Part shown: in pieces, positions 36,201-51,798 of the stretch
Numbering within the stretch: the first letter of the stretch is position 1
How the letters are laid out: each line of letters starts with the position of its first letter
Assembly: GCA_951802195.1 (NCBI GenBank)
Contig: OX637623.1
Coordinates: 1,538,626 to 1,602,625 of the forward strand
Length of the DNA: 64,000 bases
From: Tausonia pullulans
Taxonomy: Eukaryota > Basidiomycota > Tremellomycetes > Cystofilobasidiales > Mrakiaceae
Reading direction: 5' to 3'
Notes under the pieces: model-generated
Told to the model about the DNA's origin: nothing
Database searches by the model: none
What the model saw: the letters and a program-made list of their open reading frames with translations, nothing else
Position numbers and translations under genes: made by a program

Positions 36201-37701
36201 TGATAGCATTGAGACGGCGGTAGTCGACGCAGAGGCGGAGAGATTCGTCCTTCTTCTTGACGAAAAGGATAGGAGCAGCGGCAGGTGATTTCGAGGGGAC
36301 GATGAAACCTTTGGCGAGGTTCTCGTCGAGGAACTCACGAAGAGCGCCGAGTTCGACCGATGAGAGACCATAGATTGGCCCGAAGGGTGGCTGCGTGTTG
36401 CCCTTGAGAGTGATGGCATGGTCATATGGCCGATGAGGGGGTAGTTCCGAGGCTGAGGACTTCTCGAGAACCTTGAGGTAGGCGTGGTACTCCGGTGGGA
36501 CGATGGCGGGAACGTCGACCTCCGAGGGCGAAGGTTCGCGGTCCGGGGGGTCGAGCGGGTCCGTAGGCGGGATAACAGAGAAGTAAGGCGAAGACCGAAT
36601 GGCGGAGATGACGGCAGGGAGGAGTGGACGCAGGCTGACGGGCTTGGGCGAGGGCAAGGGCGAGGACGAGAGCGGGGATGACGAAACGGTGTGAGGAGTA
36701 GGTGAAGGAGCTTGACTGAGGGATTTGGCTGTGGTGAGGGGTTCTCGTGAGAGACCGGAACTCAGGCAGTACTGCGAATCGAAGACGAGGTGATGCGCTG
36801 GCCAGTCGATTGAAGGATCGTGTCGTTTGAGCCAGGGGATACCGAGGATGATCGGATAGTGGCCAAGGGAGGTGACGTCGAAAGAGAGGGATTCGGTGTG
36901 TCGATGCCTAGAGATGGTGAGGGCCAGTGGAGAGGTATGATGCGTGACGGCTCCCGATGCGATCGGGCGGCCGTCAACGACCTCGAGGGCGCGAGGGACG
37001 TTCTTGACAACGAGTGGAATCGAGTGTGCATCGACGAGGGACGAGTCGATGAAGTTGGAGGTGGCACCGCTGTCGAGAAGTGCATAGGTGTTGAACGAGG
37101 TGGATTCGAAGGCGATGGAGAGGGGTAGGACGACGTGATCTTCCTCGTGAAAGGAAGCCGTGGGGATGTCGTCGGTGGAAAGGCAGTGGAACGGGTTGGA
37201 GGATAGTGGGAAGCGGTCGACCGGGGGGGGCATGGGAGGACCGTGAGGTGATATTTTGGTGTTCTGAATAAAAAAGGAGTAAAGAGGGGGTCCAGAAACG
37301 TTATCGAAAAGCGAGGATCCATTGGCAGGTGAAGAAGATAAAGTTGGTGAGTCGGGGCACTTGGCTAGTCACGTTGCGTCTTGATCGTTGAGGATCTCCT
37401 TGATGGTGGCCGAACGAGAGGCGCCGTCGGCGGTATTGGTGGCCGAGATAGCCGAGACGTAGAAGGATCGGCGAGGGGCAGGGGCAATAGGGCAGTTGAT
37501 GACTTGGTGGTCCTTGCTGGCGCAGTACAGGCAGAGGCCGTCACGTCTCCGACGCTCCTTCTCTGCGTCGGAGAGAGGGCCGCGTGGGCGAGAGGTGGCA
37601 TCGACCTCCATGGGAACGGGGCCGGTGAATGAGGTTCTGCCCATAGGGGTGACTGGGATAAAGGTACGGCGAGCGGGAGGGACGACTGGGACGACGGTAG
37701 G
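33288..37701 (-). pseudogene. gag 3' part and pol of copy A, inverted and broken
   Basis: Reads leftward. The gag end has the CCHC knuckle (CLYCASKDHQVINC) and stops at TGA 37369-37371, followed directly by CTAG. The frame then stays open 45 codons to the pol Met at 37233. Protease [13 protein letters not shown] follows. A 7-bp insertion (36155-36161, against copy B) breaks the frame just before [22 protein letters not shown] (VYLDDILIFS), RNase H and integrase follow in one frame to a nonsense TAA at 33882-33884, where copy B has CAA. A further indel shifts the chromodomain end (YVVERIIK, DEEDTWEPYDHV). Clearly non-autonomous. Confidence 0.9.
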
Positions 37702-42883: not shown

Positions 42884-45800
42884 TCATTCTAATGAGTCAG
42901 CTTGTTGCAAATAGCCTCTGGTTTGGACTAGAGGGAACAACGCACTGTCTCGGGCGCTCTCCTCTACACTCTTGTACCTAATACCCAATTCCTTTTCCGC
43001 CTTGACACCGTAACTCGTGTTGATCTTCAACAAATTGTTGGCCTCCTCTACAGCCCCTTTCTCGCCTTTGGGCACACCGGGAGAGTTCGGAGCGACGGAG
43101 AGGATCGTTTCAGTGAGCTGCTGAGTGCACCATGGACCGGCCGAGATCACGAAACGACCCTGGGCCTCAGGTTTGGTGAGAGCGAGAACATGCGCGTCGG
43201 CGACTTAGGTGAAAGCGAGATGGTGAGACATGTCAGTAGACTGGTAAGTCTCCTCTAGAAGTAGGAGTGATGAGCACCGTTCCGGACGTCAACGAAGTCC
43301 CCATTTCCCCCTCCAGGCAAGTCTGATTCTTTGAATTGACCATTTAGCGCCCTCCAAAAGATAGCGACGGACGTGTTGAGGCTCTCCGGATTGTCGACCT
43401 CGTGGAGAATAGGACCGAAGACGATGGAAGGGTTCTGACGGCATGAGAACTGATCAGCGATGATCTCGCACTCTGGTGTGGTAGGTGGACTTACGATCGT
43501 GACAAGCGGGATGTTGTGCTCCTTGCTGTACGTCCAGGCGGCCTTCTCCGCAAGAGCCTTGCTGGCCTTGTATTTGTGGTGATTTTCTGCATCGGCACCC
43601 TTCTCCTCTATCTCACGGATCGAGAACTCATTGAAGTCCTTCTCGGTGAAGTGGTAGGGAGGGTTTTGGGGGTTCGAGATAGCGGCAACAGAAGAGGTGC
43701 TGTAATGGCCGAGTGGGTTGGGAGACAACAAGAACCTCAGCTCACAACATGAGGCACCAGACACCAATCAAGCGATAGACTCGCACGACGACTCGTTTCA
43801 CCGAGGGGTTGTTTTTGTGGATAGACTCAAGGATGCCAACAGTCCCATTCACAGCTGGTCTGACCAGCTCCTCAGGGTCTGTGACATTTAAGTGGAAGGG
43901 CGAGGCCTGCATCATCCGTCGTAGTAGCAAGCATCAGCCGAGGGTTGAGAGTGACAGAGCATAGGGAAACAGAGAACGGACCGTGTGGGCAACTCCCTCA
44001 ACTCCCTTGACAGCTTCGTCGAAAGCTCCCTTCTTCCCTATGTCCTCTACGATGGTGTATTCGAAAGGCTTTCCCGCGAACTGCTTCTTGATATACTCTC
44101 CCTGCCAACACCTGGAAGGTTAGCACTGTGCTCGTTGAAGGATCAGAGCGGACGAGCAGAGTCAACGCGCCCACCTTGGAGGCAGACCGGACAGTCCCGA
44201 CAACCCTGAAACCAGCGTCTAAGAAGGATTTGACGACCCAGATTCCGATGAAACCTGAGGTTCCGGAGACGAGGATCTACTCCCATCAGTCAGAAGAAAA
44301 TCGTCAGTACTGGATACTGGACGGCGAAGGGGTGAGTGGACCCGCAAAAGCCAGGCAGCCTAGTGTCAGGATCTTACGGTTCACTACATAGGCTCTGTGC
44401 TTATGTGGCTGCAGAATCTCGCGGACCCGCCACCTCGGCTCCTCGTCTGTGTAGCATCGCCCTTAATTGCTCAGCTTCCATTTTTAGCCTCTCTTCAGCC
44501 ACACTGTCACACACTCTTTGTTTTCTCACCCTTAGTCCATAAGACACTCAGTTCATCGTACAATTTGTTCTACACTCTGACTACCATTTGGATTCGACAA
44601 ATTTGCCCAAGACATCGAAGCGAGCCTGTGTCACTGCCCGCACTTCAGTCTACTATTCCACACACGCCCTCCCCTTAGCACCCGTCATCCTCAGCCCTTG
44701 ACCCTTGGGCCAATCCTAACATCAGTCAGAGTCACCGTCTGTCACCCGCTCGCTCCTAGTGGTCTCCACCTCGACACTGTCCTAGCCAACATGGATAATC
44801 CCAACGCAGACCCTCGAATCGTTACCGAACTTGCTCTTGCAAGACAGCAAGTTGACCGTCTAAGGACCGCCCTTAAAAATCTCCGACAACAACAACAACA
44901 ACAGACAGAGGTTATCACCTCGCATCCCGAAGTCAAAGACTACCACGGACCTACTCCCCACGCCTTCAGTGGCAAGAGATCAGAATCGGAGACCTTCGTC
45001 CTCAAGCTTGATAACATTTTTCGCCTGCAACCCGTGTCCCTCGGAACGGACGACATGAGGATTCAATACGCGATCTCACTCCTTACGGATGACGCTTTCA
45101 ACTGGGTCCGCCCTTACCTCCTCGTCGATGATTCCGACCGTCCGGACTGGTTCGACAGCTGGCCACGTTTCAGGGCCCGCCTCCTCAAAGACTTCGGAGA
45201 AATCGACCGCGTCGAAACCGCTCGGCGCGCTCTCAAGGATCTTCGTCAAACGACCACAGTTTCCATCTACGCCTTCGAGTACAGACGCCACAAACTCCTC
45301 CTTGACTTTGGCGATCAGTATCATCGTTTTAACTTCTTCGACGGTCTCAAGCTTGATGTCAAGGAACGTCTCGTCCGTGCTCAAAACTATGCCAACCTCG
45401 ACGATCTTATCGACGCCGCCATCGAATGGGACAACGCCCTCACCGACTTTCGCCACGCTCATGCACCCCGCAACGTCAGCCGTCCAACCGTCGCCACAGT
45501 CGTCCCTCCCGCTCGTCGTACCTTCTTCCCGTTCGTACCCGTGACCAACACCTCAGCCTCATCATCCGGCCCCGTCCCCATGGAGGTCGACGCCACCTCT
45601 CGGCCTCGTGGCCCCCTCTCCGACGCGGAAAGGGAGCGCCGCCGACGCGACGGCCTCTGCCTATACTGCGCCAGCAAGGACCACCGAGTTATCAACTGTC
45701 CCATCGCTCCTCGTCGATTCTTCAATATCTCGGCTATCTCGGCCACCAATACCGCCAATGGCGTCCCTCGTTCAGCCACAATCAAGGAGATTATCAACGA

Positions 45801-48800
45801 TCAAGACTCAGCGTGACTAGCCGACCCGTCCGACCCGACGGGTTCGCCTTCGTCTGCCAACGGCCCCTCGCTTTTCGACAACGTTTCTGGACCCCCTCTT
45901 TACTCCTTTTTTATTCAAAACACCAAAGAATCACTTCGCGGTCCTCCCATGCTCCCCCCGGTCGACCGTTTTTCGCTACCCTCTAACCCATTCCATTGCC
46001 TTTCCACCGACGACATCCCCACGGCTTCCTTTCATGAGGAAGATCACGTCGTCCTGCCCCTCTCCATCGCCTTCGGATCCACCTCCTTCGACACATACGC
46101 ACTGATCGACAGCGGTGCCACATCCAACTTCATCGACTCGTCCCTCGTCGACAAGCATTCGGTTCCACTCGTGGTAAAGAACGCCCCTCGCGCCCTCGAG
46201 GTCGTCGACGGTCGCCCGATTGCATCGGGAGCCGTCACGCATCACACCTCTCCCCTGGCCCTCACCGTACCTAGGCATCGACACACCGAATCCCTCTCTT
46301 TCGACGTCACCTCCCTTGGTCACTATCCGATCATCCTCGGTATTCCCTGGCTCAAACGACACAATCCCTCGATCGACTGGCCAGCGCATTACCTCGTTTT
46401 CGATTCGCAGTACTGCCGGAGCTCCTGCCTCTCACGAGAAACTCCCACCCTAGCCAAACCCCTCAGTCAAGTCCCACCATCGTCTTTCAACGAGGCTTCA
46501 TCGCCCTCGTCCCCGCCCTTGTCCTTGTCCTCGCCCAAGCCCTCGTCCTCGCCCAAGCCCTCGTCCTCGCCCAAGCCCTCGTTCTCGCCCAAGCCCTCGT
46601 CCTCGCCCAAGCCCTCGTCCTCGCCCAAGTCCTCGTCCTCGCTCAGGTTCAAGTTCAAGTCCTCGTCCTCGCCCAAGCCCTCGCCCAAGCCCTCGCCCAA
46701 GCCCTCGTCCTCGCCCAAGCCCTCGTTCTCGCCCAAGCCCTCGTCCTCGCCCAAGCCCTCGTCCTCGCCCAAGTCCTCGTCCTCGCTCAGGTTCAAGTTC
46801 AAGTCCTCGTCCTCGCCAGTCAGCCACCGATCGCTCCTCCCTGCCGTCATCTCCGCCACCCGGTCTTCGCCTTACTTCTCTGTTATCCCGCCTACGGACC
46901 CGCTTGACCCCCCGGACCGTGAGCCTTCACCCCCGGAGATTAATGTACCCGCCATCGTCCCACCGGAGTATCACGCCTACCTCAAGGTTTTCGAGAAGTC
47001 CTCAGCCTCGGAACTACCTCCTCATCGGCCATACGACCATGCCATCACTCTCAAGGACAACACGCAGCCACCCTTCGGGCCAATCTATGGTCTCTCATCG
47101 GTCGAACTCGGCGCTCTTCGTGAGTTCCTCGACGAGAACCTCGCCAAAGGTTTCATCGTCCCCTCGAAATCACCTGCCGCTGCTCCCATCCTTTTCGTCA
47201 AGAAGAAGGACAAATCTCTCCGCCTCTGCGTCGACTACCGCCGTCTCAATGCTATCACCATCAAGAATCGGTACCCGCTCCCACTCATCTCGGAATCCCT
47301 TGACCGGCTGGCCACTGCCAAGTTCTTCACCAAACTCGACCTTCGAGGCGCCTACAACCTCGTTCGGATCGCCCCGGGTGATGAATGGAAGACTGCCTTC
47401 CGCTGTCGCTACGGGCTGTTCGAGTACAAGGTTGTGCCATTTGGGCTGACGAACGCACCAGCTACATTCCAGCACTTTATGAACGACACCCTCCGCGACC
47501 TCCTCGACATCTCCGTCATCGTCTATTTAGATGATATCCTCATATTTTCCCCCACCCTCGACACACATCGCCAACACGTTGCCACTGTCCTCGAGCGCCT
47601 CCTGACAGCGCGCCTCTGGGTCAAACCGGAGAAGTGCGCCTTTCACCAGAATGAGGTCGATTTCCTCGGCTATATCGTCGGCGCTCAAGGCATCAAGATG
47701 GATCCCTCCAAGATCTCAGCCGTCACAGACTGGCCGGTACCCACCTCGGTCAGACACATCCAGTCCTTCCTCGGATTTGCCAACTTCTACCGCCGTTTCG
47801 TCCACCGGTTCTCAAAAGTCGTCGCTCCCATTACGTCCCTCCTCAAGAAAGGTGTCCCCTTCCACTTCGGACCGGAGCAACTCGCCGCTTTCAAGACCCT
47901 CAAGTCCAAGTTCACCTCGTCTGCCGTCCTCACCGTCTTCGATCCCTCGCTTCCCCTCGTCCTCGAGACGGACTCATCCGATTTCGCCGTTGCCGGCGTC
48001 CTCTCGCAACGCGCCGTTGCCCTTCGCTCGCCACTCCGCCCGATCGCCTTCTACTCGCGCAAGCTCAACCCGGCCGAACTCAACTACGAGATCCACGACA
48101 AGGAAATGTTGGCGATCATCGAGTGCCTCAAGGAGTGGCGCCATTACTGCGAAGGACACCCATCACCTCTCACCATCTACACCGATCACGAGTCGCTCCA
48201 GTACTTTACCACCTCCAAAGCCCTCTCCCGCCGTGAGTCCCGCTGGGCCGAGTTCCTCTCTGGTTTCAACTTTGTCGTTATCTACCGCCCTGGAGGACGC
48301 AATACCGTCGCCGATGCCCTGTCGAGGCGACAGGACCTTTCGGAGGGGAGTCGCCCTTCGGACCAGACACCCAGACGCCTTCTCAAACCCGACCAGTACA
48401 TCATTGCCGCCAACCTCAGGTCCCGTCCTTCGGCCGCTGCCGCTCCCCTCAATCAAGCTCCCCTCGATCAAACTTCCTTCAATACTATCGGCAACATCCC
48501 TGCGCTCTTCGAACCCATTGACTCGGAACCTCCGGAACCCATTCCCGACCTCGATCCTCGCCCCAAGCTCCTTCCTCGTCTTCTCACCGCACAACTCGCC
48601 GACCCATCACTCGCCCCCCTCATTGACCTCCTCCGTCATCCGAATCGCCCTCGCTCTCCCGACGATGTCAAGGCTCTCCAGGGTCTCTCGCTCCACCCTA
48701 CAGACCTCCTTCTCTCGCGCGGCCTCGTCCTCGTTCCGGACGATCACCAGCTACGCCTCGACCTCGTCCGCGCCTGCCACGAGCCTCGCCTCGCTGGGCA

Positions 48801-50576
48801 CCTTGGCGCTCGCAAGACCCACGACCTTCTTCGACGCTCGTTCACTTTCCCCTCTGATTACACGTTCGTTCAGACCTACACCTCCGGCTGCGACCTTTGC
48901 GTCCGCAACAAGACAAATCGGCGCGCACCCTTCGGCCTCCTCCAACCGCTTCCGCCACCGACACGCCCTTGGACGATGATCTCCATGGACGGCATCGTCA
49001 AGCTCCCAACCTCCGACGGCCTCGACTGCATTCAAGTTTTCATCGATCGATTCACCAAGATGGTTCGTCTCGTCCCGTACTGTGAAGCCGGTTTCGCGGC
49101 TCCCGAGCTCGCTCGGATGTACCTCGACCACGTTGTCCGGCACCACGGTTTCCAGACAGACATCACCTCGGATCGCGGATCGACCTTCACCTCCGCTTTC
49201 TGGCGATCTTTCCTCTCTCTCATCGGCACTGCCCCTCATTTCACTACCGCCTTCCACCCCGCGGCCAACGGCCAAACCGAGCGTGCTAATGCCGTCGTCG
49301 AGACCTTCCTTCGGATCTTCTGCAACCACCATCAAGACGACTGGGTCTCGCTCCTTCCCTCCTGCGAGTTCGCTCTCAACAACTCGCTAGCGGTCGCCAC
49401 CCAGCACACGCCTTTCTTCGCCAACCACGGTTTCCACCCTCTCTCGTCATCTGACCTCCTCGCCGCCTCTACCTCGCACAATCCCGCCGCCGATGCCACA
49501 GTTGCCAAGCTTCGCGCTCTTCATACCGAGATCCGAGATCACATCCTCGCTGCCCAACGTTCATACAAGACCTTCGCTGATCAATCCCGTCGTCCTACCA
49601 CCTTTCTAGGGGAAGACGGCAAGGATCCTTCCCCTCCGATCTTCAAGACCGGCGATCTGGTCTGGCTCAATCGTCGCAACATTACTACCGATCGGCCCTC
49701 GCTCAAACTCGATGTCAAACACCTCGGCCCTTTCCGGATCCTCCGTGTGCTCTCGGACATCTCCTTCGAGCTCGACTTGCCTCCCACAGTCCCGGTCCAT
49801 CCTGTTTTCCACGCCTCGCTCCTCTTGCCACACGCCCCCGGACACCCCGGTCAACACCAGCCTGCCGCGTCTCCAGTCAACGCCGCCGACCCAGAGCTGT
49901 ACGTCGTCGAACGCATCATCAAGATGGACGTCCGCGACGGCAAGCACTTCTACCTCGTTCACTGGCAAGGCTATCGCGACGAGGAGGACACATGGGAGCC
50001 GTACGATCACGTTGCTCATCTTCGCCTCCTCAAAGCCTTCCACCGCGCCCATCCTGATCTTCCCAAGCCATCGCGTCGAATAATCCGTCGTCCTTCTCGC
50101 CGTCCTCGTCGCCGTAACCCCTAGCTCTCAGGTCCTTTGCCCTCTCAGGAGTTCGGGCCTTAGCCGGGGGCTCCTGTCAGGATCTTACGGTTCACTACAT
50201 AGGCTCTGTGCTTATGTGGCTGCAGAATCTCGCGGACCCGCCACCTCGGCTCCTCGTCTGTGTAGCATCGCCCTTAATTGCTCAGCTTCCATTTTTAGCC
50301 TCTCTTCAGCCACACTGTCACACACTCTTTGTTTTCTCACCCTTAGTCCATAAGACACTCAGTTCATCGTACAATTTGTTCTACACTCTGACTACCATTT
50401 GGATTCGACAAATTTGCCCAAGACATCGAAGCGAGCCTGTGTCACTGCCCGCACTTCAGTCTACTATTCCACACACGCCCTCCCCTTAGCACCCGTCATC
50501 CTCAGCCCTTGACCCTTGGGCCAATCCTAACACCTAGGCTGACCTTTGACCCTGCAGAAGGGACGGTGGCGGACAT
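42884..50576 (-). CDS. NAD(P)-dependent reductase (extended SDR, dihydroflavonol/methylglyoxal reductase type) with a retrotransposon in intron 1
   Basis: Cytosolic NADPH-dependent reduction of carbonyl compounds, as in yeast Gre2. Exon 1 is 50544-50576 (MSATVPSAGSK) and ends at GTCAGC. Exon 2 (44175-44276) begins after GGGAGTAG and reads ILVSGTSGFIGIWVVKSFLD, the Rossmann G-x2-G-x2-G motif (GTSGFIG), in frame with exon 1. Exon 3 (43982-44101) gives GEYIKKQFAGKPFEYTIVED to GVEGVAHT. Exon 4 starts at 43906 (ASPFHLNVTDPEELVRPAVN). A likely GC-AG intron then joins KRVVV to TSSVAAISNP. The catalytic Y-x3-K is YKASK within HHKYKASKALAEKAAW. Later: NPSIVFGP, VADAHVLALTKPEAQGRFVI, and stop at 42884. 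The 6,169-bp element B plus its 5-bp duplication lies within intron 1; without it the intron is roughly 100 nt. Confidence 0.85.
44364..44721 (+). repeat. 5' LTR of copy B
   Basis: TGTCAGGATCTTACGG...CCAATCCTAACA. CATAAG at 44538 lies about 30 bp before ACACTCTGACTACC (44572), the probable transcript start. Confidence 0.95.
44722..44738 (+). promoter_or_regulatory. Putative primer-binding site, possibly self-primed
   Basis: TCAGTCAGAGTCACC follows the LTR directly. AGTCAGAGT (44724-44732) is the exact complement of ACTCTGACT (44574-44582) near the presumed transcript start. Copy A has the same pair. Confidence 0.5.
44791..45816 (+). CDS. gag: Gag polyprotein of copy B
   Basis: Structural protein of the retrotransposon particle; 341 residues from ATG 44791 (MDNPNADPRIVTELALARQQ). 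A short Gln run is followed by the capsid-like domain (FSGKRSESETFVLKLDNIFR, ISLLTDDAFNWVRPYLL, FNFFDGLKLDVKERLVRAQN). Near the end a CCHC zinc knuckle (C290, C293, H298, C303; CLYCASKDHRVINC) binds RNA. The stop is TGA 45814-45816 with CTAG immediately after, and the same frame stays open into pol. Confidence 0.95.
   Translation: MDNPNADPRIVTELALARQQVDRLRTALKNLRQQQQQQTEVITSHPEVKDYHGPTPHAFSGKRSESETFVLKLDNIFRLQPVSLGTDDMRIQYAISLLTDDAFNWVRPYLLVDDSDRPDWFDSWPRFRARLLKDFGEIDRVETARRALKDLRQTTTVSIYAFEYRRHKLLLDFGDQYHRFNFFDGLKLDVKERLVRAQNYANLDDLIDAAIEWDNALTDFRHAHAPRNVSRPTVATVVPPARRTFFPFVPVTNTSASSSGPVPMEVDATSRPRGPLSDAERERRRRDGLCLYCASKDHRVINCPIAPRRFFNISAISATNTANGVPRSATIKEIINDQDSA
45814..45820 (+). promoter_or_regulatory. 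UGA-CUAG stop-codon readthrough site between gag and pol
   Basis: TGA CTA G at the end of gag; the following 44 codons up to the pol Met at 45949 contain no stop, so one suppressed UGA gives a Gag-Pol fusion. The same TGA CTA G is found in copy A at 37365-37371. Confidence 0.75.
45949..50124 (+). CDS. pol: Pol polyprotein of copy B: protease, RT, RNase H, integrase, chromodomain
   Basis: 1,391 residues counted from the first Met; translation probably starts upstream by readthrough from gag. Aspartic protease DSGATSN at 54-60. A Ser/Pro/Lys repeat region (nucleotides about 46531-46815) lies between protease and RT. RT: LDLRGAYNLVRI, the palm motif YLDD at 526-529, and FLGFANFYRRFVHRFSKVV. RNase H: LETDSSDFAVAGVLSQ through NTVADALSRR. 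Integrase: HHCC zinc finger region (GHLGARKTHDLLRRS, CDLC), then catalytic D1014 (SMDGIVKL), D1075 (SDRGSTF) and E1111 (GQTERAN), a D-D-35-E. The C-terminal chromodomain at about 1318-1370 (YVVERIIKMDVRDGKHF, VHWQGY, DTWEPYDHV) should tether integration to modified chromatin. No frame damage seen. Confidence 0.96.
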   Translation: MLPPVDRFSLPSNPFHCLSTDDIPTASFHEEDHVVLPLSIAFGSTSFDTYALIDSGATSNFIDSSLVDKHSVPLVVKNAPRALEVVDGRPIASGAVTHHTSPLALTVPRHRHTESLSFDVTSLGHYPIILGIPWLKRHNPSIDWPAHYLVFDSQYCRSSCLSRETPTLAKPLSQVPPSSFNEASSPSSPPLSLSSPKPSSSPKPSSSPKPSFSPKPSSSPKPSSSPKSSSSLRFKFKSSSSPKPSPKPSPKPSSSPKPSFSPKPSSSPKPSSSPKSSSSLRFKFKSSSSPVSHRSLLPAVISATRSSPYFSVIPPTDPLDPPDREPSPPEINVPAIVPPEYHAYLKVFEKSSASELPPHRPYDHAITLKDNTQPPFGPIYGLSSVELGALREFLDENLAKGFIVPSKSPAAAPILFVKKKDKSLRLCVDYRRLNAITIKNRYPLPLISESLDRLATAKFFTKLDLRGAYNLVRIAPGDEWKTAFRCRYGLFEYKVVPFGLTNAPATFQHFMNDTLRDLLDISVIVYLDDILIFSPTLDTHRQHVATVLERLLTARLWVKPEKCAFHQNEVDFLGYIVGAQGIKMDPSKISAVTDWPVPTSVRHIQSFLGFANFYRRFVHRFSKVVAPITSLLKKGVPFHFGPEQLAAFKTLKSKFTSSAVLTVFDPSLPLVLETDSSDFAVAGVLSQRAVALRSPLRPIAFYSRKLNPAELNYEIHDKEMLAIIECLKEWRHYCEGHPSPLTIYTDHESLQYFTTSKALSRRESRWAEFLSGFNFVVIYRPGGRNTVADALSRRQDLSEGSRPSDQTPRRLLKPDQYIIAANLRSRPSAAAAPLNQAPLDQTSFNTIGNIPALFEPIDSEPPEPIPDLDPRPKLLPRLLTAQLADPSLAPLIDLLRHPNRPRSPDDVKALQGLSLHPTDLLLSRGLVLVPDDHQLRLDLVRACHEPRLAGHLGARKTHDLLRRSFTFPSDYTFVQTYTSGCDLCVRNKTNRRAPFGLLQPLPPPTRPWTMISMDGIVKLPTSDGLDCIQVFIDRFTKMVRLVPYCEAGFAAPELARMYLDHVVRHHGFQTDITSDRGSTFTSAFWRSFLSLIGTAPHFTTAFHPAANGQTERANAVVETFLRIFCNHHQDDWVSLLPSCEFALNNSLAVATQHTPFFANHGFHPLSSSDLLAASTSHNPAADATVAKLRALHTEIRDHILAAQRSYKTFADQSRRPTTFLGEDGKDPSPPIFKTGDLVWLNRRNITTDRPSLKLDVKHLGPFRILRVLSDISFELDLPPTVPVHPVFHASLLLPHAPGHPGQHQPAASPVNAADPELYVVERIIKMDVRDGKHFYLVHWQGYRDEEDTWEPYDHVAHLRLLKAFHRAHPDLPKPSRRIIRRPSRRPRRRNP
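46531..46815 (+). repeat. In-frame SSPKPS minisatellite inside pol
   Basis: 18-bp units (encoding SSPKPS) fill two similar blocks, each closing with SSSSLRFKFKSSSSP, so a block of over 100 bp was duplicated. Copy A has only a short Ser/Pro linker here. Confidence 0.9.
50175..50532 (+). repeat. 3' LTR of copy B
   Basis: Same sequence as the 5' LTR; preceded by GCCGGGGGCTCC and followed by the CCTAG duplication. Confidence 0.95.
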
Positions 50577-50774: not shown

Positions 50775-51197
50775 TGTCAGGATCTCCCGGATCTTCCGGA
50801 TTTGCGCATCTCCCGGAACTACCACCTCAGCTCTGTGTCAGAATCTCCCCGATTTGCCACCTCGGTCCTGCGCCTGGCCGACTCGGCGCCGTCGTAGCTT
50901 TTCCCTTGCTCACTCAGCATTTCCATTCTTGGTTCCTTATTTTGTCTCATCCGTTCCACACTCCTTGCTTCTGCTCCTTCTCGACCCCTCCCTCGTGTTC
51001 CCCCCCCCCCCTGGTCCATACAACGCTCAAATCAGCGTAGACTTTTGTTCTGCACTCTGACAATCAGTTGGATTCGACAAACCTGCTAAGACCTTTAAGC
51101 GAGCCTGTGCCACTGCCAGCGCTTCAGTCCACTCCTCCACCTACGCCCCTCCCTCACTCATCCTCCTCATTCCTCGACCCTTTGGCCAATCCTAACA
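50775..51197 (+). repeat. LTR, CTCCTGGCC-like subfamily
   Basis: TGTCAGGATCTCCCGG...TTTGGCCAATCCTAACA, 423 bp, with a second TGTCAGAATCTCC 60 bp inside, suggesting a small duplication of the 5' end. No target duplication (CTGCT / ATTCG). A long G run at about 50667-50682 lies just upstream. Confidence 0.8.
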
Positions 51198-51251: not shown

Positions 51252-51711
51252 TACCTGGTTGATCCTGTCAGAAGTCGTATGCTTGTCTCAAAGATTAAAG
51301 CCATGCATGTCTAAGTATAAACAAATTCATACTGTGAAACTGCGAATGGCTCGTTGAATCAGTTATAGTTTATTTGATAGTATCTCACATACGTGGATGA
51401 CTGTGGTAATTCTAGAGCTAATACATGCTGAAAGCCCCGACTTCTGGAAGGGGTGTTTTTATCAGATTAAGAACCAACGCTGGAAACAGCTCCCTTGGTG
51501 ATTCATAATAACTTCTCGAATCGCATGGCCTTGTGCCGGCGATGCTTCATTCAGATATCTGTCCTATCAACTCTCGATGGCAGGATAGAGACCTACCATG
51601 GTTTCAACGGGTAACGGGAAATCAGGGTTTGGTTGCGGAAAGGGAACCTGAGAAACGGCCACCACATCCAAGGAAGGCAGCAGGCGCGCAAATCACCCAA
51701 TCCCGACACGG
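51252..51711 (+). rRNA. Fragment of 18S (SSU) rRNA, first about 460 nt, not functional
   Basis: Begins TACCTGGTTGATCCTG, the conserved mature 5' end, and continues through ATTAAAGCCATGCATGTCTAAG, GGCTCGTTGAATCAG, GGTAATTCTAGAGCTAATACATG, GGGTAACGGG, AAACGGCCACCACATCCAAGG to CCCGACACGG, and then leaves SSU homology abruptly. The start CTGTCAGAAGTCGTATGC departs from the nearly universal CTGCCAGTAGTCATATGC. No rDNA spacer or later SSU sequence follows, so it is an isolated, decayed piece. It begins 54 bp after an LTR end. Confidence 0.92.
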
Positions 51712-51798
51712 TTCGGTGAGCGGTCGGCCTCCTTCCCATCGAGGCGCTGCTGCCGCCGGAGAACTCGGCTGACCTGCCTCTTCCGTCTGCCCGCAGGT

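Follow-up and report, generated by a model that had tools for sequence, protein, structure and literature searches.

The window, a stretch of 64,000 nucleotides of the Tausonia pullulans genome, carries an LTR retrotransposon whose gag frame ends in UGA, is followed by CUAG and continues open in the same frame into pol. Readthrough of this UGA, giving a Gag-Pol fusion, is very probably how the element makes its Pol, judging from the comparison of its junction with other genomic copies and with related elements. A reading made earlier from the sequence alone had proposed the same explanation; it is the one best supported by layout, relatives and precedent, but its argument from selection on the linker protein proved weak.

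Layout of the element and its proposed expression

The features of the window element, and of the junction of a decayed copy in the same window (copy A), are listed below.

44359..44363, + strand: target-site duplication CCTAG, left copy; CCTAG precedes the 5' LTR and also follows the 3' LTR
44364..44721, + strand: 5' LTR, 358 bp, TG...CA; exact repeat at offset 5811 (the 3' LTR)
44574..44582, + strand: putative self-primer ACTCTGACT within the 5' LTR; 9-base complement of bases just past the LTR
44724..44732, + strand: putative self-priming primer-binding site AGTCAGAGT; complement of 44574-44582
44791..45816, + strand: gag ORF (coding 44791-45813), 341 aa plus UGA; Retrotrans_gag domain
45658-45699, + strand: CCHC knuckle of Gag
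45814..45820, + strand: gag stop UGA (45814-45816) with downstream CUAG
45817..45948, + strand: in-frame linker of 44 codons, from the gag UGA to the first pol AUG
45949..50124, + strand: pol, 1391 aa counted from its first AUG, stop UAG at 50122-50124; protease motif, RT, RNase H, integrase and chromodomain
50175..50532, + strand: 3' LTR, 358 bp, identical to the 5' LTR
50533..50537, + strand: target-site duplication CCTAG, right copy
37234..37371, - strand: junction of decayed copy A; UGACUAG and a 45-codon open linker, with an out-of-frame AUG 49 bases downstream of the UGA start

Both junctions are as the sequence-only reading had described them: the coordinates, the frame, the UGA, the CUAG and the 44 open codons to AUG 45949 hold for the window element, and UGACUAG at 37371-37369 on the minus strand with 45 open codons holds for copy A.

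Four pol domains score above the Pfam cut-offs (RVT_1, RT_RNaseH, Integrase_H2C2 and Chromo), rve falls under its cut-off, and the best PDB match of pol is the Ty3 Gag-Pol. RT, RNase H and integrase stand in Ty3 order and are followed by a C-terminal chromodomain, as expected of a chromovirus (Ty3/gypsy), and the 9-base complementarity of 44574-44582 with 44724-44732, which identifies a putative primer from sequence only, is the self-priming signature of Tf1/sushi elements. Given that both LTRs are identical, the window copy moved recently. We therefore place the window element among the chromoviruses, assign it by its self-priming signature to the Tf1/sushi type, and regard it as having been active recently in its fungal host. 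Among the 120 matches listed for an isomerase-like host protein, P0123, the named sequences come mostly from ascomycetes, at about 50-56%, and rank below the best matches, which gives the host a fungal look.

An 18-base tandem repeat lies in the protease-RT interval of pol (window 46463-46876), and open-frame lengths vary among copies, perhaps via this repeat. A piece of eukaryotic 18S rRNA, 426 bases long (window 51293-51718, model positions 42-466), sits about 760 bases beyond the 3' LTR, and two 43-base pieces in window 51044-51197 are 84-86% like parts of the LTR, being probably another LTR remnant.

Under the proposed mechanism, one mRNA would be translated mainly into Gag, with termination at the UGA. 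Because the UGA-CU(AG) context makes for a weak stop, a minor share of ribosomes would insert an amino acid there and continue in the same frame across the 44-codon linker, yielding a Gag-linker-Pol fusion that the element's own protease would then cut. The occurrence and rate of readthrough, the inserted amino acid and the processing are what we infer here.

According to the available text of the source, UGA-CU(A) leads to readthrough in reporters tested in Ustilago maydis, and higher levels need downstream sequences (PMC4207609). No such readthrough-raising sequences were identified downstream at the element junction, which counts against the proposal. When stretches of the window junction were folded and compared with shuffles, 45790-45860 presented a z of -2.1 (better than shuffles), 45814-45948 a z of -0.1, and 45814-45893 a z of -0.4, and two stretches of copy A folded worse than shuffles, with z of +2.0 and +2.6. 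A 3' stem-loop was rejected as part of the signal, the two copies folded having no structure common to the two linker types. Given this, the signal is probably the short UGA-CU(AG) context.

The same UGA-CU(A) stop context is found in fungal and animal metabolic genes, where, in the available text of the source, readthrough yields peroxisomal isoforms of host enzymes, unlike the polyprotein of the window element (PMC4207609). The one host gene examined, a triosephosphate isomerase gene, lacks the UGA-CU context and ends in TAA; hence, as far as one gene goes, host readthrough is not supported from cellular genes.

The junction across genomic copies

Searches of the element's own genome yielded 41 matches for the junction, 74 for RT and 68 for Gag, fragments included. 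The junction script used the pattern TGACTA, then A or G, then C. Since scoring in the junction search covered 40 of 57 candidates, the counts of junction places are lower bounds (at least 55 places). Among the 55 distinct places found, 50 have UGACUAG, one has UGACUAA (L037), and four have lost the stop region, three of these being LTR-linker fusions and one being joined to an LTR-like stretch. The codon preceding TGA is GCG, GTG, ACG or GCA, and one junction sequence of 300 bases is identical in 20 copies, overlapping loci being counted once. That gag and pol share one frame and UGACUAG stands at 50 of the 55 places supports readthrough.

Five lineages were found with an open gag and a long open pol, and in four of them the linker is in frame: the window's, L029, L034 and L038. 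The last three have open gag frames (in L038, the first Met of the stretch examined is codon 253) and linkers of 43, 45 and 43 codons, respectively, open to the long pol frame. Given these lengths, their linker indels are multiples of three.

The fifth lineage, L031/L033, counts against this explanation. Its gag of 340 codons and its pol are open (in L033, pol runs for about 1288 codons from its AUG), yet a non-triplet indel shifts the linker frame, and simple readthrough of the UGA therefore cannot fuse the two. The lineage may be recently dead, or it may speak against fusion being strictly required. Stops or non-triplet linker indels in other copies had been named in the sequence-only reading as evidence that would speak against readthrough, and L031/L033, with gag and pol otherwise open, goes part of the way there. 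Of the five haplotypes whose linker has a non-triplet indel, four belong to copies whose gag or pol is broken as well, which speaks for readthrough.

Two further structures were observed. On contig C15 (about 186949-199500), L060 and L061 form tandem units of about 4534 bases each, in which an LTR end (at 187350, 191884 and 196419) is fused straight to the linker, at the base following UGACUAG. The units have neither gag nor primer-binding site, their pol frames are long and open (1416, 1416 and 1103 codons), and units one and two are 98.7% alike; insertion of the element into its own linker with subsequent recombination would account for this structure. In addition, pairs with the same junction in opposite orientations lie on one contig (L027/L028, L029/L030, L042/L043, L064/L065 and others), which suggests inverted duplications.

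Constraint on the linker and alternative explanations

The linker presents a dN/dS of about 0.65 (11 haplotypes with open linker) versus 0.19 in pol, over its first 150 codons; the gag value was set aside because the copies used had damaged gag. Substitutions were counted on a tree of 18 haplotypes, that is, 22 minus four that were truncated or heavily decayed. At codon positions 1/2/3 the linker has 27/19/40 changes, a third-position lean (40 of 86, binomial p 0.008), early pol has 20/9/44, and the last 20 gag codons have 11/12/14. When only the four haplotypes representing lineages in which gag, linker and pol are all open are considered, the excess is not significant (16/9/19 variable columns, p 0.11). 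Hence, these values weakly suggest that the linker may be selected as protein.

The sequence-only reading had made more of this region. Its claim that linker changes fall mainly at third positions was not confirmed, nor was its constant stretch of 20 residues: among open-linker copies the core is LFDN(V/I/F)SGPPLYS, with one position variable, and the sequence after the core varies. Moreover, another forward frame, one of the two others, is also open across the linker, so 44 open codons are not telling alone. In comparison with UGA-CUAG readthrough genes, the stop context is present and constraint on the extension is weak, on the dN/dS and the p value of 0.11 given above; such a dN/dS counts against readthrough, as does the unexceptional conservation of the heptamer within the family. 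UGACUAG shows one change, and 37 of the 189 seven-base windows in the gag end and linker show at most one; given that such windows are common, conservation of the heptamer in a young family is weak evidence alone. At window 45884-45905, within the linker, every seven-base window shows at most one change across the 18 haplotypes, and the RNA or DNA itself may be under a second constraint there.

The alternative that survives best, and which we nevertheless consider improbable, is that gag terminates normally and Pol is made separately, by reinitiation or internal initiation at AUG 45949. The weak linker constraint and the open gag and pol of L031/L033 would fit such a scheme, as would the pol AUG itself, kept in all 18 aligned haplotypes. 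However, this AUG has C at -3 and +4, a weak context, whereas the gag AUG, with A at -3 and G at +4, has a strong one, and reinitiation is made less likely by the length of gag, 341 codons. The second linker type occurs in 19 copies: in 12 of them an out-of-frame AUG stands ahead of the pol AUG, 49 bases downstream of the UGA start, where scanning ribosomes would reach it earlier (in four copies the AUG is in frame after a deletion, and three are cut short). These 12 include L034, in which gag and pol are open. In L083, a related element discussed below, the first AUG lies 16 residues before the D of DSG, likely inside the protease fold.

That the UGA is a chance disabling mutation of a single-ORF element is very unlikely, and already disfavoured. 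Many genomic copies are decayed, which speaks for it, but the stop is present in all 51 of the 55 junction places that retain the region, it is kept both by the 20 identical-junction copies and by divergent lineages with open gag and pol, and the identical LTRs indicate recent movement of the window copy.

Removal of the UGA by an intron, leaving a single gag-pol frame in the spliced mRNA, is barely credible: CUAG does offer an AG 3' splice site right after the UGA, but gag has no GTRNGT donor, the sole weak donor found (GCAAGT at 44847) joins out of frame to the AG of CUAG by arithmetic, and none of the junction copies inspected lacks precisely such an intron. Splicing was rejected for want of a suitable donor in gag. 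It is just as hard to believe that the host generally reads UGA as a sense codon, for which no supporting evidence was found and against which stands the absence of UGA from the 341 gag and 1435 linker-plus-pol codons, together with the TAA of the one host gene examined, a weak test.

Related elements and the origins of UGA-CU

A scan of contigs of prokaryote genomes yielded 17 loci (L074-L090). These are eukaryotic retroelement contigs in prokaryote assemblies, mostly MAGs, evidently present as contaminants. Nine have the -1 frameshift layout, with gag and pol overlapping (L075, L076, L077, L079, L080, L081, L084, L089 and L090). Three have an in-frame UGA-CU: UGACUC in L082, and UGACUU in L083 and its close relative L086. 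In two (L087 and L088) the CCHC knuckle shares its frame with either the protease motif or RT, and the layout of the remaining three (L074, L078 and L085) is unreadable. The two related families with in-frame UGA-CU have a protease DSG motif 34-36 codons past the stop, which further supports readthrough in the window element.

Besides the window element, the 48 rows of an RT tree comprised 13 of these 17 loci, another three loci and 31 hits chosen by hand from 116 protein hits; no sequence named Tf1, Tj1 or similar was among them. The UGA elements occupy two places in this tree, and a single clade of the four UGA rows is rejected (p-AU 0.0014, with two long-branch rows removed). Losses from one UGA ancestor are possible. 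No further clear UGA family was found among 30 loci taken from 100 matches in eight contaminant-bearing genomes, that of L080 excluded, and no relatives were found in the scans of viral contigs. An in-frame TGACTTG in L109 was not counted, as this copy is decayed and the motif falls within its protease region.

The -1 frameshifting Tf1/sushi elements have related RT and domain order, and share their layout with the nine frameshift relatives found here, but their gag and pol overlap in different frames, unlike those of the window element. Tca2 of Candida albicans, a fungal LTR element of the Ty1/copia class, offers another comparison. According to the available text of the source, it has a gag-UGA-pol arrangement like that of the window element, differs by a putative 3' pseudoknot, and its junction alone directed no readthrough in S. 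cerevisiae (PMC2194720), a result that counts against readthrough in the window element.

The closest precedents are Schizosaccharomyces japonicus Tj1, Tcry1 and Tosmo1-3, which, as far as the available text of the sources describes them, resemble the window element in chromodomain, in-frame TGA-CT and self-priming (putative here). These fission-yeast elements have a common GAA-TGA-CT at the in-frame gag stop, and Tf1/sushi elements, which self-prime, use predominantly -1 frameshifting in other species (PMC10085805, available text). Tj1 also makes a 5-bp target duplication, as the CCTAG of the window element is (PMC10085805, PMC4600332), and without its gag stop shows virtually no transposition (PMC4600332), again in the available text of the sources. 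In the same texts, the fission-yeast elements differ in having no CCHC knuckle, which the window Gag has (CLYCASKDHRVINC), and in strictly sharing eight bases, GAATGACT, where the copies studied here have GCG, GTG, ACG or GCA before TGA; Tj1 pol has no AUG, whereas the window pol has one 44 codons past the stop.

Given the fission-yeast precedents, the readthrough mechanism and its use by chromoviruses are already known. That a UGA-suppression element is unusual in fungi, as the sequence-only reading had put it, must therefore be tempered by Tj1, Tcry1 and Tosmo1-3, as described in the available sources, and by two further families with in-frame UGA-CU. The new part is the CCHC-bearing UGA-CU lineages outside fission yeasts; in the titles and abstracts listed by searches of open-licence literature, no report of UGA-CU readthrough in a chromovirus outside fission yeasts was found. 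We regard the case as evenly balanced that fungal chromoviruses turned to UGA-CU readthrough several separate times (in the window family, in the L082/L083/L086 lineage and in the fission-yeast clade), as an easy alternative to -1 frameshifting, perhaps by context only, with no fixed RNA structure.

UGA-CU readthrough, known from fission-yeast elements, would thus also be used by CCHC-bearing chromoviruses in other fungi, which suggests that the strategy arose more than once. Because the family is very young and present in high copy, its ratio of Gag to Gag-Pol should be easily measurable in the host by ribosome profiling or mass spectrometry.
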